The notes beneath the pieces were generated by a model. It ran no database searches. It was not told where the DNA came from and worked only from the letters and a program-made list of their open reading frames with translations. Positions 13,979 through 33,119 of a stretch of DNA of 43,911 nt are shown here, piece after piece. Within the stretch, counting starts at the first letter, position 1. Each line of letters begins with the position of its first letter. The stretch comes from Oscillospiraceae bacterium (GTDB taxonomy: Bacteria; Bacillota; Clostridia; Oscillospirales; Oscillospiraceae): assembly GCA_022792555.1 (NCBI GenBank), contig JAAWBF010000008.1, positions 1 to 43,911 of the forward strand, read 5' to 3'. Position numbers and translations under genes: made by a program.

Positions 13979-16057
13979 TCATTCCGGCATCCCATCCATA
14001 ATGGCGTGCAGACGCTTGAGTATATAGGATGCCTCCAGGTCCACCTTACCCTGAACCGGATTGAGGTCAATTTGCAGATGATCGGTGGTGCGGCGCAGGC
14101 GGATGAGGCCCCGCTCGTCAAAGACCTCCAGACACACCATAGTACGCATGACCGTCTCCCGCTGTCCGTAGGTCCGGGACAGGCTGCGGGACAGCCGCCG
14201 GGCGGTCTCCTCCAACGGGCCCTGACTGGTACGGCCCTTGAGGTAGCGCCACAGATTGACAAATTCCTGCCGGGTGGGCAGCATGGCCTGGGCCTCCTGG
14301 GGCGAGATGGGTTCCCCCCGGCTGAACTTTTCATAGAGGGCCTGTTCCGTTTCTGCCCGTGTCAGTGCAGAACGCATATCCGTAATCTGGAACTGGACCG
14401 AGCGCCAGCCTCGATACTCGTTTACCTGGGGGTAAAAGGCCACGTCTACCCGGTCCCCTTGGCTCAGGCCAGTGTCCGCCAAGGTGGCGGAGAAAAAGAT
14501 CGCGTCAAAGGACCGTCCCCCCGCCAAGAGTTTGAGCTTGAGATGCTTATTGCCGCCCACCTCGGCGGCAGAAGCGATCGTACAGCCCGACAGAGAGAAC
14601 ACCGGCTTGGGATTGCCCGCCCCATAGGGCTCTAACAGCTCCAGTGCCTCCACACCCTCCAGGGTGAGCAGGCCGGTGTCAGGAATTTCAGCGTCAATCT
14701 CCAGTGTAGAGACCATTCCAGCGCCTTCGGTGCGTTCGTTGACATAGTCGTTCATCCGCTGGCGGAAGGGGGCGATATTATCCTCTAAAATGGTAAAGCC
14801 GGCGGCCAGCTCGTGGCCGCCAAACCCCTCTAGCAGATCGGCGCATTCCTCCAGGGCGGCAAAGAGATTAAAGCCGCCGAAGGACCGGCAGGAGCCCTTC
14901 CCCTTTCCATCTTGGAGACAGATCATAAAAGTGGGGCAGGAATACCGCTCCGCCAGCCGGGAGGCCACAATTCCTACCACCCCCTGATGCCAGCCGCCGC
15001 AGGCCAAAACCAGGGCGTGCCGCTCCGCCGGGACCATATGCTCCGCCGCGGCCACACACTGGGTGTAGATCTCGGCCTCAATTGCCTGCCGCTCTCGGTT
15101 GAGGGTACACAGAGACTGGGCCAGCTCGGTGGCCCGGACTGGATCCTCGGTGAGGAAAAGCTCGGCAGCCAGAGCGGCACAGCCCATTCGGCCCGAGGCA
15201 TTGATTCGGGGGGCCAGAGTATAGCCGATGCTCCCAGAGGTCAGGGGGCGGGCGTCTAAGCCGGTCTCGTGGAGAAGGGCCCGCAGGCCGGGACGGCTGG
15301 TGTGCTTGATGCACGCCAGACCAAGATGGACAATGGCCCGGTTCTCCCCCACCACCAGCATCACATCGGCTACCGTCCCGATGGCCGCAAGGTCGGCGTA
15401 GGTCTGGAGGAGCTGCTCCCGGTTCTCCAAGCCGCCCAGAGCGAGTACCAGTTTAAGCGCGACACCGACGCCGGCCAGATGTTTAAACGGATAGGGGCAG
15501 TCCCGGCGGTGGGGGTCCACCACCGCAATCGCCTGAGGGAGCTCCTGCTTGCACTCGTGGTGATCGGTAATCACCACATCCACCCCCAGCGCGCTGGCAA
15601 AGGCGGCCTCCTCTATTGCGGTGATGCCGCAGTCCACGGTGACAATGAGGGAGACTCCCTCCCGCTGCAGCGTGGCGACCGCCTCCCGGTTAAGGCCGTA
15701 GCCCTCCTCCATCCGGTCGGGGATGTAGGGGATGACTGTCCCGCCCTGCGCCTTGAGATAGCTGGTGAGCAGACAGGTGGCAGTGATGCCGTCCACATCG
15801 TAATCCCCATAGACCGCAATGGTCTCTCCATCAGCCAGCGCCCGGTTAATCCGTGCCACCGCCAAATCCATGTCCTTCATCAAAAGGGGCTCCTGGAGCA
15901 GCTCCTGACCGGAGGCGAGAAAATCCCTAGCCTTCTCCACGGTATCCAGACCCCTGGCACACAGCACCAGTGCGGCGAGTGGAGGAACGCCCGCAGCTTC
16001 CAGAGCAGACTGCGCCTTGGTATCCGTAAAGGTCCGGTTCCAATGCTTATATTTCAC
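13979..16057 (-). CDS. recJ: single-stranded-DNA-specific exonuclease RecJ
   Basis: 692 aa. RecJ degrades single-stranded DNA 5'-3' in recombination and repair. DHH-family motifs are visible: YGDYDVDGITA, TVDCGIT, ITDHHE and NASGRMG. The DHHA1 domain has GWHQGVVGIVASRL and GGHELAAGF, followed by an OB-like C-terminal region. I place the start at GTG 16057 (begins VKYKHWNR): AAGGGGG stands 7 nt upstream, and RecJ proteins open with a KxW segment. An ATG at 16138 has no ribosome site and would sit about 6 nt from the predicted transcription start. First gene of the minus-strand run recJ-rel-wall cluster. Confidence 0.93.
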   Translation of the reverse strand: MKYKHWNRTFTDTKAQSALEAAGVPPLAALVLCARGLDTVEKARDFLASGQELLQEPLLMKDMDLAVARINRALADGETIAVYGDYDVDGITATCLLTSYLKAQGGTVIPYIPDRMEEGYGLNREAVATLQREGVSLIVTVDCGITAIEEAAFASALGVDVVITDHHECKQELPQAIAVVDPHRRDCPYPFKHLAGVGVALKLVLALGGLENREQLLQTYADLAAIGTVADVMLVVGENRAIVHLGLACIKHTSRPGLRALLHETGLDARPLTSGSIGYTLAPRINASGRMGCAALAAELFLTEDPVRATELAQSLCTLNRERQAIEAEIYTQCVAAAEHMVPAERHALVLACGGWHQGVVGIVASRLAERYSCPTFMICLQDGKGKGSCRSFGGFNLFAALEECADLLEGFGGHELAAGFTILEDNIAPFRQRMNDYVNERTEGAGMVSTLEIDAEIPDTGLLTLEGVEALELLEPYGAGNPKPVFSLSGCTIASAAEVGGNKHLKLKLLAGGRSFDAIFFSATLADTGLSQGDRVDVAFYPQVNEYRGWRSVQFQITDMRSALTRAETEQALYEKFSRGEPISPQEAQAMLPTRQEFVNLWRYLKGRTSQGPLEETARRLSRSLSRTYGQRETVMRTMVCLEVFDERGLIRLRRTTDHLQIDLNPVQGKVDLEASYILKRLHAIMDGMPE

Positions 16058-16150
16058 AGGCACACCCCCTTCTATTGTACCGCTATCACTTCTCAAGATG
16101 TGTACCGGTGATACCAAAATTTTACCCCATATTTTCATTCATAGACTTTT

Positions 16151-16179
16151 ATTATAGCAAATCCAACAGAAAGATACAA
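16151..16179 (-). promoter_or_regulatory. sigma-A promoter of recJ
   Basis: Minus strand: TTGTAT, 17 nt, TATAAT. Leader of about 87 nt to the GTG at 16057. Confidence 0.75.
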
Positions 16180-16253
16180 GGCTATTCCCAATATGTCCAG
16201 GGGATTTTTGTAGATTTGGTCATAAAGTGTTACAAAAAAGACATTGGCGCGGC

Positions 16254-16282
16254 TTGACACAGAGAAGCAGAGGGGGTATACT
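16254..16282 (+). promoter_or_regulatory. near-consensus promoter of the tyrosine phenol-lyase-like gene
   Basis: TTGACA at 16254-16259, 17 nt, TATACT at 16277-16282. The leader from about 16289 to 16493 contains the whole MITE-like element. Confidence 0.85.
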
Positions 16283-16323
16283 ATTTACACTTTAAACTGT
16301 TACAGCGCAAATTCATAAAGTAA

Positions 16324-16467
16324 GAACCTGTATTTATAACTGACGCCAGCACATTTGCTTGACGCTGCGAAGGCAAATTTTCGCAGGAATCCTTACAAGA
16401 AAATTTAATGCAGAGCGGCGGGAACTAGGCCCGTCCAGACGGCGCTTGAGATTGTGAATACAGGTTC
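16324..16467. mobile_element. 144-bp MITE-like element in a gene leader
   Basis: Ends in inverted repeats GAACCTGTATTTATAAC and, on the other strand, GAACCTGTATTCACAAT. It is flanked by a 3-bp duplication TAA (16321-16323 and 16468-16470). It has no ORF and an internal hairpin (CTGCGAA...TTCGCAG). This is the structure of a non-autonomous DNA transposon. The TNA-type duplication and ends starting GA would suit an IS5-like transposase, but that is inference. It lies between promoter and start codon of the next gene. Confidence 0.75.
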
Positions 16468-16493
16468 TAAGTGCTGGTCGAAGGAGTTTAACT

Positions 16494-17942
16494 ATGTCAA
16501 GTGTTACCTTTTTTCGCGGGGACACCCTCCCTTTGGAGATGCACAAGGTACGGATTGTGCAAAAGCTCAATCTGCCCAATATAGAGGAACGGGTTGCTCA
16601 TATTTCTAAAGCGGGCAACAATACCTTCCTGCTGCAAAACCGGGATGTCTTTTTGGACATGCTCACCGACAGCGGGGTCAACGCCATGAGTGACCATCAG
16701 CTGGCGGCTATGATGCGTGCGGACGACAGCTATGCTGGAAGCGAGACCTACACCCGCCTGTATGAGAAAATCCGTGAAATTTTCGGGATGGAGTACTTTC
16801 TCCCCGCCCACCAGGGCCGGGCCTGTGAAAACATTCTGGCGACCACCCTTGTCAAGCCGGGCGATGTGGTGCCCATGAACTTCCATTTTACCACAACAAA
16901 GTCTCACATCACCCGGATGGGGGGCAGTGTGGAGGAGCTGGTCATCGCCGAGGGACTCAAGCCGGAGAGCTCCCACCCTTTCAAGGGAAACTTTGATGTG
17001 GACCGCCTGCGGGCGCTGATTGAGCGGGTAGGCCCCGCACATATCCCCTTTGTCCGCCTGGAGGCGGGGACCAATCTCATCGGCGGACAGCCCTTTTCCC
17101 TCCAGAACGCCAAAGAGGTCACGGATCTGTGCCGTTCCTACGGCATTCTGACCGTCCTAGACGCCTCTCTGCTCCAGGACAACCTATACTTTATCAAGAA
17201 ACGGGAAGCTGCCTGCAAGGACATGAGTATCCGGGCGATTACCCGGTCCATGTCCGATATGGTGGACATCATCTACTTCTCCGCCCGAAAGCTGGGCTTT
17301 GCCCGCGGGGGCGGCATCTGTATGCGGGATGAGGCCCTATGTCTCAAGATGAAAGAGTATATCCCGCTCTTTGAGGGCTTTTTAACCTACGGCGGTATGT
17401 CGGTCCGGGAGATGGAGGCCATTGCTGTGGGCCTGGATGAGAGCATGGATGAGGACATTATCTCCCAAGGCCCGCTGTTCATTGAGTACATGGTCCAAGA
17501 GCTCCAGCGCCGGGGTATCCCGGTGATCACACCGGCGGGCGGCCTGGGCTGCCATCTGAACGCCTCGGAATTTGTCCCCCACATCCCGCAGTCCGAGTAT
17601 CCAGCCGGTGCGCTGGCGGCGGCCATGTATATCGCCGGCGGTGTGCGCGGCATGGAGCGCGGCACCATGAGCGAGCAGCGGGAAGAGGACGGCAGTGAGC
17701 GCTTCGCCGAGCTGGAGCTGCTGCGTCTCGCCCTGCCCCGCCGGGTGTTTACCCTGTCCCAGGTCATGTACGCGGTGGACCGCATTGACTGGCTCTATCA
17801 AAACCGCGCCCTTATCGGCGGTTTGAAGTTTGTCGAGGAGCCGGCGGTGCTGCGGTTCTTCTTTGGCCGTCTGGCCCCCACCTCCGAGTGGCAGGAGAAA
17901 CTGGCCGCAAAATTCCGGGCTGACCTGGGGGACAGTCTATAG
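16494..17942 (+). CDS. tyrosine phenol-lyase-like beta-eliminating lyase
   Basis: 482 aa, PLP fold type I, TnaA/TPL family. These enzymes split L-Trp to indole or L-Tyr to phenol, each giving pyruvate and ammonia. Conserved sites: DSYAGSE (Tyr80), HQGRACEN (Arg109), TNLIGGQP (Asn194), Asp223 and the PLP lysine in SARKLGF (Lys266). Three specificity positions resemble TPL rather than tryptophanase: FTTT (133-135, where TnaA has FFDTT), MERG (Arg389, TnaA has Ile) and LRFF (455, TnaA has His). A residue expected to contact PLP, Arg of DATR in TPL, is Leu226 here. ATG 16494 follows AAGGAG. Monocistronic: strong promoter, MITE in the leader, terminator after. TPL activity is likely but not certain. 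Confidence 0.7.
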   Translation: MSSVTFFRGDTLPLEMHKVRIVQKLNLPNIEERVAHISKAGNNTFLLQNRDVFLDMLTDSGVNAMSDHQLAAMMRADDSYAGSETYTRLYEKIREIFGMEYFLPAHQGRACENILATTLVKPGDVVPMNFHFTTTKSHITRMGGSVEELVIAEGLKPESSHPFKGNFDVDRLRALIERVGPAHIPFVRLEAGTNLIGGQPFSLQNAKEVTDLCRSYGILTVLDASLLQDNLYFIKKREAACKDMSIRAITRSMSDMVDIIYFSARKLGFARGGGICMRDEALCLKMKEYIPLFEGFLTYGGMSVREMEAIAVGLDESMDEDIISQGPLFIEYMVQELQRRGIPVITPAGGLGCHLNASEFVPHIPQSEYPAGALAAAMYIAGGVRGMERGTMSEQREEDGSERFAELELLRLALPRRVFTLSQVMYAVDRIDWLYQNRALIGGLKFVEEPAVLRFFFGRLAPTSEWQEKLAAKFRADLGDSL

Positions 17943-29673: not shown

Positions 29674-29681
29674 AGACGTTA

Positions 29682-29841
29682 GAGCCTGTTCAGTATCTCA
29701 ATGTGTGCGGATTATCGGAAGATTTTTTGCCTTCCAAGGCAAAAAATCACAGAAATACTTTGTGTATTTCAAGGTTTTTTAACGCCGTCAGGGCGGAAAA
29801 TTCACCGTCAAGACGTGCACAGGGAGATGCTGAACAGGCTC
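29682..29841. mobile_element. 160-bp MITE-like element at a stop codon
   Basis: Terminal repeats GAGCCTGTTCAGTATCTC and, on the other strand, GAGCCTGTTCAGCATCTC (17 of 18). They are flanked by the duplication TTA (29679-29681 and 29842-29844). No ORF. Internal hairpins GATTTTTTGCCTT/AAGGCAAAAAATC and GAAATAC/GTATTTC. The right-hand TTA is the complement of the TAA stop of the transglutaminase gene, so the element abuts that stop codon. Confidence 0.8.
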
Positions 29842-32106
29842 TTAGTATAATCCATAGCCATAGCGGAAGAGGAGCCGGCGCGGCGGGGGGAGCTTGGCGT
29901 CGATCTCCGCAGCCTGGGTGTGAACCCAAGAGAGGATGGCGTCCAGCTCCTCCGGGGTGAGGGTATGCTGGCTGAAGGCGGCTTTTTGGGCGAGCTCCTG
30001 GAGATGGTCGGGACAGACGCCGCCCCAGGGCAGGAGGGCCTGGAGATACTGGTAGGCGGCGATGGCGGCCCGATTGGGGTCGGTGTTGGAAAATTGTCTG
30101 ATCCTGCGCCTACGGGCCAGAGCACGGCGCAGGGGGAGCCCAGCAATACAGGCCAGAAGAGCCAGCGGAATGAGCCACAGCAGGCGGCTGGGATCTACCT
30201 GACCCAGTCCGCCGGCCTGGGGGGTGGGAGAGGGGGTGGGCGGAGCAGAGGTTCCCGGTGTGGAGGTGGGGGCCACTTGAGCAGAGGGGGCAGGGGTGGC
30301 CTCCGGCGTGGGGGAGGGATTGCCGCTCTCCCCTGCGATTGGGGTCAGATCCACAGGATACCAGCCGTAGCCGTCCAGATAGACCTCGGTCCAGGCGTGG
30401 GCGGCGGAGTCCAGGACATCCACCCGTCCAGAGGTAGGAATGTCGGTCATATAGCCGCTGACATACCGGGCGGGGTAGCCGAACATCCGAAAGAGGAGGG
30501 TGGAGAAGGTGGCATAGTGCATGCAGTAACCCTGCTTGCTCTCATTGAGGAAGTAGTCCAAAAAGTCCGCCTCCTCTGGGGTACGGGGGGTGTCCTGGCT
30601 GTAGGTGGTGGTGCTGGACAGACATGCCTGAAAAAACTGAACAAGAAAAACCAAATCTCGGACGGGCTGGGGGAGATTGCTGTCCTCCGGTTCGACCGCG
30701 AATAGAGCGGGATTTTCATGGGTGATGCGGTACAGCCAGCCTAAAATCGTCTCCCGATCCGCCTCAGAGATGCTGGAGTAGTTCTGACGGGCGAAATTCC
30801 GGTATATCTGTTCAGCCTGGGCGGCCTGACCGGTCAGAGGGGTAAACGTGCCGTCCAGCAGCCCGTCCGGCTTGTAGTAAACGGTGTGGGTCTGAATACT
30901 CCGGTCCCGCGCCAGGTAGCTGTCATAGACGAATTGCGCCCCCCGGACCTGTTCGGGGGTGGTGACAAGCTGATAGGGGGTGTAGACACAGCCTCCGGGG
31001 GCGTTTACCACTTCAACGGTGATCGGGTGGTAGGGGGAGCCGGGGTTGGTGAGGGAGGGAAAATTCAAGGGCTGATACCCTAAAAGGGGGTCGTCGCCTT
31101 CCGCTTGAAACAACGGGAGATAGGCGTCCTCGGCCAGGGGCTCCCAGCCAGAGCCGGTGTAGGTCCCGGCGGCGTGGCCCCGCAGATAGAGTTTTCCCCG
31201 CACCTCGCTCTGAACCCGGAGCATGGTCCGCCCGTTGAAGTGGAGGGGACCCGCGTTGGACAGATCCACCGATTGGGATCCTCCCGCGGCAGTAAAGTCC
31301 AGGAGCTTGGGTCCGGCAAAGCCGCCGGCGCCGGAAAACCAGGCGCCCAGATCGCCGCTCCAGAGGAGCAGACGGTCCAGCGCGTCCACGGCCCAGCGGG
31401 GCTGCTGATACTGAGCCTGGGGGAGGGCCGCCGTTAGAATTAAGAGGAGCAGTCCGGTGGCGGGAAGGGTAATCAGGGCCAGCTTTGCGCCCCCTGTCCG
31501 GTCCTGCCGGGCGGCCAGGGAGGGGAGCAGGAGGGTACACCACCCGGCGATTAACAGTATGAGGGGGAACCAGGCGGGGGTGATGGTCAGACACAGGGCG
31601 GGAATCAAGATGGGAAAGGTGAGCCAGAAGGCCAGCCAGACAGAGCGCACCCGGCAGACGGCCCACCCAAGCAGGAAGGCCAGGGCGGCGGCCAACGCGC
31701 CCAGATAGAGGGTGACAGCCTGGAGCCACTCCTGGCGGGAGCGCACGGCAAGGGGATAGATGGTCTCCAAGAAGGAGAAATCCTGGGCGAACCGGTTGAC
31801 CAGGGTACAGCGGACGGACACCTCTCCCAAGCTGAGATAGGGCCACAGCCGCCACACGGCCAGGCCGCACAGGGGGAGCAGCACCCCCAGCGCTGCCAGA
31901 CAGTGCCTGCCCCTGGGCAGGGAGAAGACGGTCAAAAAGACCAGGGCTGTGATCAGGCAGGCGGCCAGCAGGGGGTAGGTATGGGCCTCAATCTGAAATG
32001 CCGAGATAAAGGAGAACAGGGCGCCGCACAGCAGGACCAGCAGGACCAGCCCGTCAGCCAGGAGGATTGCAGGGGTTCGCCGCAGGGGCGGGCGGGATTT
32101 TTTCAT
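29842..32106 (-). CDS. membrane transglutaminase-like protein (TgpA type)
   Basis: 754 aa. About six to seven N-terminal membrane helices (20-235), an extracytoplasmic region, a transglutaminase core (about 470-600) with Cys in SKQGYCMHYATFSTLLFR, His in AAHAWTEVYLDG and Asp in WYPVDLTP, a Pro/Ser/Thr-rich linker (about 605-650), a further membrane helix (LLWLIPLALLACIAGL) and a cytoplasmic tail. The triad is complete, so it may be an active cross-linking or peptidase-like enzyme; the substrate is unknown. ATG 32106 overlaps the DUF58 stop (ATGA). Third gene of the moxR-DUF58-tgpA operon. A MITE-like element begins right at its stop codon. Confidence 0.88.
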   Translation of the reverse strand: MKKSRPPLRRTPAILLADGLVLLVLLCGALFSFISAFQIEAHTYPLLAACLITALVFLTVFSLPRGRHCLAALGVLLPLCGLAVWRLWPYLSLGEVSVRCTLVNRFAQDFSFLETIYPLAVRSRQEWLQAVTLYLGALAAALAFLLGWAVCRVRSVWLAFWLTFPILIPALCLTITPAWFPLILLIAGWCTLLLPSLAARQDRTGGAKLALITLPATGLLLLILTAALPQAQYQQPRWAVDALDRLLLWSGDLGAWFSGAGGFAGPKLLDFTAAGGSQSVDLSNAGPLHFNGRTMLRVQSEVRGKLYLRGHAAGTYTGSGWEPLAEDAYLPLFQAEGDDPLLGYQPLNFPSLTNPGSPYHPITVEVVNAPGGCVYTPYQLVTTPEQVRGAQFVYDSYLARDRSIQTHTVYYKPDGLLDGTFTPLTGQAAQAEQIYRNFARQNYSSISEADRETILGWLYRITHENPALFAVEPEDSNLPQPVRDLVFLVQFFQACLSSTTTYSQDTPRTPEEADFLDYFLNESKQGYCMHYATFSTLLFRMFGYPARYVSGYMTDIPTSGRVDVLDSAAHAWTEVYLDGYGWYPVDLTPIAGESGNPSPTPEATPAPSAQVAPTSTPGTSAPPTPSPTPQAGGLGQVDPSRLLWLIPLALLACIAGLPLRRALARRRRIRQFSNTDPNRAAIAAYQYLQALLPWGGVCPDHLQELAQKAAFSQHTLTPEELDAILSWVHTQAAEIDAKLPPPRRLLFRYGYGLY

Positions 32107-33119
32107 GGATGCGCCCCTCCTTCCGAGCGGTCTGATTCTTCGGAGAGGTGAACACGGCGGACCGATCCCGCTTCGTCTACCGGCTGAGGTGGGAGATCCA
32201 GCATAGACTTGCCTTCTAAGGGGGCGGGCGAGGCGCACAGCTCGGTCAGACAGGCCAGCAGGGTCCGCTCACTGTCCACTGGATGGGTGGCAATCTGACC
32301 GTCTGGACGGGCCCATTGGACAAAATGAGACCTCCCCTGCTGGATGAGCTGGTGAGAGACAGCATACAGCCGGTCCAAGGTGCGGTCCAGATCCTCCGGG
32401 GTTCCAAAGAGATCCAATGTGAGCACCAGAGAAACAGAGGGAGGCTCCAGGGTCTCCCGGACAATGAGCTCGTCCCGTTTGGAGGAGAGCTTCCAGTGGA
32501 CTGCACGGATGGGGTCCCCCGGCCGGTAGGTCCGCAGGTCATAGTCCTCTCCCGGCCCGCCGCCAGGGCGGGGCCGTAGACCGGTTCCATCCCGAACACC
32601 GCCGTTGACAGGGGGCGGAGGCGGGACGTCCGCTGGGATGGGGAGGACCAGCATCTGGGCAGGGGGCGGGACGGGTAGGCGCCGGGTAAAGAGCCCCAGC
32701 AGATCGCAGATCTTGGGCTGCTGAAGGGTGCAGTAGAGCAGCCCGCAGTGCTCCACGGCGGCGTGCTCCGTGGACCTGTGGCCTTGGGAGGCACCGGTCA
32801 GTGTGCGGCGCAGGACGGCATGTCCGCCGGTGAGCCTGTTCTCCTCTCTGAGTCGGTAGGTCAGCCGGGCCAGGGGGAGACGGGTGGGATTTTCCACCGT
32901 CACCACCCACCGGCAGGGGGTCCCGCGGGGGGTTCCGGCGGTCTCCGGGGACAGAGAGATCCGGCAGCCCAGCAGGCCGGGCAGACTGAGCAGCAGGGAG
33001 AAGAGGGGGAAGATCAACACCAGGATCAGGACAAAATGAGAGAGGTAATCCGTAAAGCAGATCTGAAAGAAGAGGGCGGCGATCAGGGCCATCCCGTAGG
33101 CAATTCGGCGGCGCAGCAT
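32103..33119 (-). CDS. DUF58 domain protein
   Basis: 338 aa. Two N-terminal membrane helices (about 8-50), then a soluble region with the DUF58 signature: RTYRPGDPIRAVHWKLSSKRDELIVRE (about 205-230), followed by a von Willebrand-A-like part. DUF58 proteins are encoded with MoxR ATPases and transglutaminase membrane proteins in many phyla; the joint process is not well defined. ATG 33119 (MLRRRIAY) sits 7 nt after the moxR stop, with GTGAGG just upstream. The in-frame start at 33182 would overlap moxR and is rejected. ATGA overlap with the next gene shows tight coupling. Confidence 0.88.
   Translation of the reverse strand: MLRRRIAYGMALIAALFFQICFTDYLSHFVLILVLIFPLFSLLLSLPGLLGCRISLSPETAGTPRGTPCRWVVTVENPTRLPLARLTYRLREENRLTGGHAVLRRTLTGASQGHRSTEHAAVEHCGLLYCTLQQPKICDLLGLFTRRLPVPPPAQMLVLPIPADVPPPPPVNGGVRDGTGLRPRPGGGPGEDYDLRTYRPGDPIRAVHWKLSSKRDELIVRETLEPPSVSLVLTLDLFGTPEDLDRTLDRLYAVSHQLIQQGRSHFVQWARPDGQIATHPVDSERTLLACLTELCASPAPLEGKSMLDLPPQPVDEAGSVRRVHLSEESDRSEGGAHP

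Follow-up and report, generated by a model that had tools for sequence, protein, structure and literature searches.

The analysed window, a stretch of 43,911 nucleotides from a Clostridia relative of Pseudoflavonifractor, contains a gene of the tyrosine-phenol-lyase/tryptophanase family, between whose promoter and start codon lies a MITE; a second member of the same element family is located elsewhere in the window (Table 1). The original prediction had described here, from upstream to downstream, a consensus promoter, a 144-bp element with a TAA duplication, and the ribosome site of the lyase gene, all of which we found as described. The proposed 17-nt inverted ends were correct with respect to the existence of the repeat but not to its length: An inverted-repeat search reports 17 nt with 88% agreement, which includes one base from each TAA copy, whereas the true element ends comprise 16 nt (GAACCTGTATTTATAA / GAACCTGTATTCACAA) and differ at two positions, both of which are G-U in RNA. 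In a scan of positions 15900-16700, the sole further promoter-like site was weaker and on the minus strand; no plus-strand promoter was found in this region inside or downstream of the element, nor was a terminator found there.

Table 1. Features of the lyase leader and position of the second family member in the window
Feature	Position	Strand	Remarks
Sigma-70-type promoter of the lyase gene, TTGACA-17-TATACT	16254-16282	+	11/12 consensus match
Conserved leader motif CTTTAAACTGTTACAGCGCAAA	16290-16311	+	aligned with L058 and L141
Target-site duplication TAA, left copy	16321-16323	+	
144-bp MITE	16324-16467	+	A-type ends; by alignment, a copy of the ~160-bp hairpin family with internal deletions
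Left terminal inverted repeat GAACCTGTATTTATAA	16324-16339	+	
Right terminal inverted repeat GAACCTGTATTCACAA	16452-16467	-	
Target-site duplication TAA, right copy	16468-16470	+	
Ribosome-binding site AAGGAG	16481-16486	+	
Tyrosine-phenol-lyase/tryptophanase-family gene	16494-17942	+	closest to solved tyrosine phenol-lyases; start ATG
Second family member, full-length, 160 bp	29682-29841	+	B-type ends; model R1, 102 bits

Among solved structures, the tyrosine phenol-lyases are the best matches of the encoded protein (E 2e-107). Its scores are below the curated equivalog cut-offs for both tyrosine phenol-lyase and tryptophanase; therefore, its substrate can be assigned only tentatively. The second family member is flanked by a TTA duplication (29679-29681 and 29842-29844), whose right copy is at the same time the stop codon of a minus-strand ORF (29842-32238).

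Several lyase orthologues in relatives are directly preceded by T-box leaders (L108:3728-3957, L064:3644-3898, L067:3702-3937, and further ones in L139, L140, L046, L142, L143, and L123). Three of these T-boxes are above the Rfam threshold, the T-box motif occurs in 16 of 112 loci, and in the leaders inspected the specifier position is UAC (tyrosine). A tyrosine T-box on a lyase that is normally regarded as degradative could mean that the enzyme synthesizes tyrosine in these organisms. Downstream of one orthologue, an azaaromatic (yjdF) riboswitch is found (L064:5941-6035).

Insertion downstream of the lyase promoter

With at most one mismatch, the 16-nt end sequence has 46 forward and reverse matches in the genome, versus 2 for a reversed-pattern control; because of this excess and the matching flanks, the end repeat is beyond chance. 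Pairing of left and right ends gave 16 distinct elements, whose lengths range from 36 to 259 bp and which fall into two end classes, A (GAACCTGTATTCACAA) and B (GAGCCTGTTTAAAATCT). Identical 3-bp TNA flanks accompany 15 of these 16 copies; the duplications are TAA, TTA, TCA, and TGA. According to a crude ORF caller, none of the 16 elements is placed inside a gene, several start where the upstream gene has its stop codon, and for several the distance from the element end to a following start codon is 27-69 bp. As intergenic, stop-adjacent, and pre-start positions are common among the copies, the placement in the lyase leader is typical for the family. The interpretation of the element as a MITE, which was part of the original prediction, agrees with all of these properties: It is shorter than about 500 bp, has paired terminal inverted repeats and a TAA duplication, is too short to encode a transposase, and belongs to a multi-copy family with matched TNA flanks, of which the covariance model R1 described below detects 26 copies in this genome.

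Comparison with relatives, as called for in the original prediction, revealed element-free orthologues in two genera. The closest lyase orthologue (85% identical) is that of Pseudoflavonifractor sp. 524-17 (L058 = L138 of G321); upstream of it we found TTGACG-17-TATAAT followed by CTTTAAACTGTAAAAGCGCAAAGTATTAAAGTA, for which the window counterpart is CTTTAAACTGTTACAGCGCAAATTCATAAAGTA. The orthologue of G328 (L141; 73% identical) is preceded by TTTACA-17-TAAAAT and a related block. In both cases, the promoter position relative to the leader motif and the 17-nt spacing are kept, which means that the occupied and the empty sites have the same flanks. If the window flanks are joined at one TAA, the alignment to each of the two relatives beats 1000 of 1000 shuffles. 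The 22-nt leader motif occurs exactly once in each of the genomes G000, G321, and G328, always at the lyase promoter, and the reversed-pattern control gave 0 matches; the motif probably serves the lyase gene as an operator or a leader signal. It belongs to a 31-nt block (16290-16320), directly 3' of which the element is located; this block includes a CTTTA...TAAAG dyad. Note that these nearest empty sites originate from other genera and that the own genus is represented by one genome.

Judged by its sequence context, the element is a genuine insertion. That it could be a chance palindrome, for which one might adduce only that the nearest empty sites lie outside the same species, is refuted for practical purposes by the multi-copy family, the matched duplications, and the empty sites in two genera.

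The hairpin family and its ends

In an alignment with full-length copies, the window element turns out to have lost the greater part of its left arm and also some of the apical hairpin; compared with its nearest relative in the own genome, the 259-bp copy, it lacks about 115 bp. By this alignment, the window copy is an internal-deletion derivative of a hairpin MITE of ~160 bp; neither the internal deletion nor the very large family had been recognised in the original prediction. A single long hairpin is common to ten full-length A-type copies, which come from eight genomes; in this hairpin, 94% of the cells are paired and two-sided changes occur in 27 of 59 pairs; the covariation score is 0.376, versus 0.187 for shuffled and at most 0.120 for slid alignments, and none of 500 shuffles reached it. 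Based on these ten copies, we built the covariance model R1, whose E-values are rough owing to a short calibration. The window element matches R1 with 50.9 bits over model positions 1-162. Outside the own genome, R1 matched 40 of 99 relatives, which represent many different families of the order; at class level, 30 of 196 genomes had a match. An alignment of 19 copies, almost all of which are outside the training set, was generated without the use of structure: The core is 91% paired, 25 of its 29 pairs show two-sided changes, and the covariation score amounts to 0.616, versus 0.200 (shuffled) and at most 0.212 (slid); on none of five measures was the score reached by a shuffle.

The internal loops, which centre on AAGGC, CGCA-G, CAAG, and AACGCA, show hardly any variation among copies having unrelated ends. 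On average, conservation is higher in unpaired than in paired core columns, a difference which is not significant (p = 0.08); a strictly defined text motif of the loops lacked the flexibility to be useful, matching 19 of 81 copies. At gathering scores, Rfam has no match in the window, and a full-length copy gave only far-sub-threshold hairpin matches. Likewise, no relevant account of the family was found in the open-access literature on Oscillospiraceae or Faecalibacterium. Judged against these two sources, what is new is the element family, that is, a hairpin core conserved throughout the class, which combines interchangeable ends with a widely variable sequence and is absent from Rfam. Two variants were seen in addition. 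In some copies, an additional hairpin (CCAGCACAGCTATGCTGGGCTGGGGG...) is inserted, which is common to elements with different ends (L002:1505-1763, L003:1504-1753, L006, L010). In L254, L256, and L262, copies that consist of the core alone (about 100 nt; positions 32-133 of the model) occur as pairs in opposite orientation, 13-18 bp apart and apparently without IS5-type ends.

Among the IS5-type elements, the IS1031/IS427 groups generate TNA duplications and the IS5 group generates YTAR duplications. Members of the family show both types: TNA duplications are found in G000, G030, and part of G055; G026 and G046 have 4-bp YTAR-like duplications (TTAG, TTAA, CTAA) and one extra G at the element ends. 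On the basis of duplication type and of group definitions taken from general knowledge, we take the family to belong to the IS1031/IS427-like and IS5-like groups. In G321 and G271 (L202, L205), the C-terminus of an IS5-type transposase directly abuts a B-type end, which is followed by a TNA flank; the transposase of G321 has a PF13586 match. Further IS5-type transposases abut C-type ends in G418, G287, and G312. For A-type ends, no transposase was found, and the own genome (86% complete) has no match to PF01609 or PF13586; a search of L204-L233 recovered no autonomous IS copy with both ends. Locus L207, a candidate for an A-type transposon, was rejected, as it consists of a MITE beside a transposase remnant whose own end is of B-type. 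These neighbourhoods and duplications suggest that the window copy is of IS5-type as well.

Predicted consequences for the transcript and possible purpose of the fold

According to the original prediction, the transcript has to carry the whole element, which could affect RNA stability or translation. Because the scan revealed no other promoter from which transcription could start downstream of the element, the lyase transcript should indeed include it. An IS5-type, non-autonomous MITE would have inserted at a TAA located 3' of the leader motif and 5' of the lyase ribosome site, so that the original promoter would now transcribe through the element and the leader would be longer by 147 nt. The element alone folds at -49.7 kcal/mol (z = -4.2). 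When the entire leader is folded, the probabilities of the first 16 end pairs range from 0.94 to 1.0, and the predicted end stem has a length of 16-18 bp. For four 3' cut-offs, the ribosome site and the start codon are predicted to be equally accessible with and without the element; as in all of these folding predictions, proteins and co-transcriptional effects are left aside. Therefore, no change in translation start is expected, and this part of the original prediction is not supported computationally. In the RNA, the inverted ends would pair and turn the insert into a closed side module. Because the ends are predicted to pair with a probability near 1 and the ribosome site and start codon stay as exposed as before, a neutral, self-folding insertion, which is tolerated and leaves translation start nearly unaffected, is the most likely outcome.

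An effect on RNA stability is possible by analogy. Like a Correia element, the end stem might expose the mRNA to cleavage by RNase III or another nuclease and thus alter lyase expression; the predicted stem is located in the leader, and there is a published case in which a MITE downstream of a promoter is cleaved at its ends (PMC10969869). However, due to the internal deletions, the stem is a few base pairs shorter here than in full-length members, and cleavage need not alter protein output. Altered lyase expression is rather unlikely in our view; hairpin cleavage could cause a modest change in mRNA half-life.

In order to interpret the conserved fold, the placement of the copies has to be considered. 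In six genomes, 70 of 81 copies are intergenic, as determined with the crude ORF caller, and where the neighbour genes are co-directional, their direction agrees with that of the element 17 times and is opposite to it 22 times. The lack of an orientation bias speaks against a sense-strand regulatory RNA; a use at the DNA level in mobility, or harmlessness upon transcription from either strand, are better readings.

Conserved internal loops are more than an inert insert needs and count against a plain neutral-insert explanation. With its covarying stems and the conserved loops AAGGC, CGCAG, CAAG, and AACGCA, the core of ~100 nt could be a class-wide structured module, which different transposon specificities carry through Clostridia and whose fold has a positive function, either as mobility hairpin DNA or as RNA; we regard this as conceivable rather than probable. 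Alternatively, the fold may be kept as single-stranded or cruciform DNA that is recognised by the transposase or a host protein during transposition or replication of the element. The structure and the loops are constant while terminal sequences and duplication type vary between lineages, and placement is independent of orientation, which would fit such a role; yet IS5-type DDE transposases are not known to need an internal hairpin, and this proposal is a tentative one.

The compensatory changes might also result from gene conversion between the arms, with one arm serving as correction template, and not from selection. Template switching readily occurs in long imperfect palindromes; however, such a correction would erase mismatched internal loops, which are among the best conserved positions, and we consider this origin improbable. 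Even more doubtful is a regulatory RNA module acting in sense orientation in leaders, which was raised by the conserved loops: The covarying stems and conserved loops of class-wide copies are compatible with it, as is the finding that the model scores one strand about twofold higher than the other, but the orientation counts set it back, and the window copy has kept only part of the apical hairpin and little of one arm.

Taken together, we think it probable that the lyase leader harbours a near-neutral insertion of an IS5-type MITE, which derives by deletion from a ~160-bp hairpin family spread through Clostridia. The stems and internal loops of this family would be kept by selection on the folded nucleic acid, and the fold would most likely serve the multiplication of the element rather than the regulation of host genes. 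The lyase insertion provides a clear-cut natural example of a mobile hairpin in a leader, in which promoter, gene-specific motif, and ribosome site are intact. The family is of greater weight than this single insertion, given its maintained pairing, conserved loops, and interchangeable IS5-type ends; with dozens of copies per genome across an abundant class, it becomes testable whether MITEs need an internal fold to spread or merely tolerate it.

Relation to known systems

The insertion itself is a new case of an already known arrangement. In the mtrCDE leader of Neisseria gonorrhoeae, a Correia element is located just downstream of the promoter and is carried in the transcript; cleavage by RNase III and binding of IHF have been shown (PMC10969869). 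Correia elements (NEMIS/CREE) and the window element are both hairpins with terminal inverted repeats, situated downstream of a promoter and, by prediction for the window element, within the transcript. However, the window element is not a Correia element: Its sequence is unrelated by inspection, its ends are different, no promoter was found inside it, and its host belongs to Clostridia and not to Neisseria. ERIC and REP/REPIN sequences of Enterobacteria and Pseudomonas are likewise dispersed intergenic palindromes with a conserved fold; in contrast to these, the family described here has target duplications and IS5-type ends and is not enterobacterial, and no RAYT (Y1) partner was encountered. 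With IS5-family MITEs it has in common the 3-bp TNA or 4-bp YTAR duplications, ends of GRRCCTGT-type or GGAAGC-type, and IS5-type transposase genes that abut related ends in relatives. It differs from them in that no autonomous element with A-type ends was found and, moreover, in that one hairpin core occurs with several end types, which simple deletion derivatives of a single IS would not usually show.
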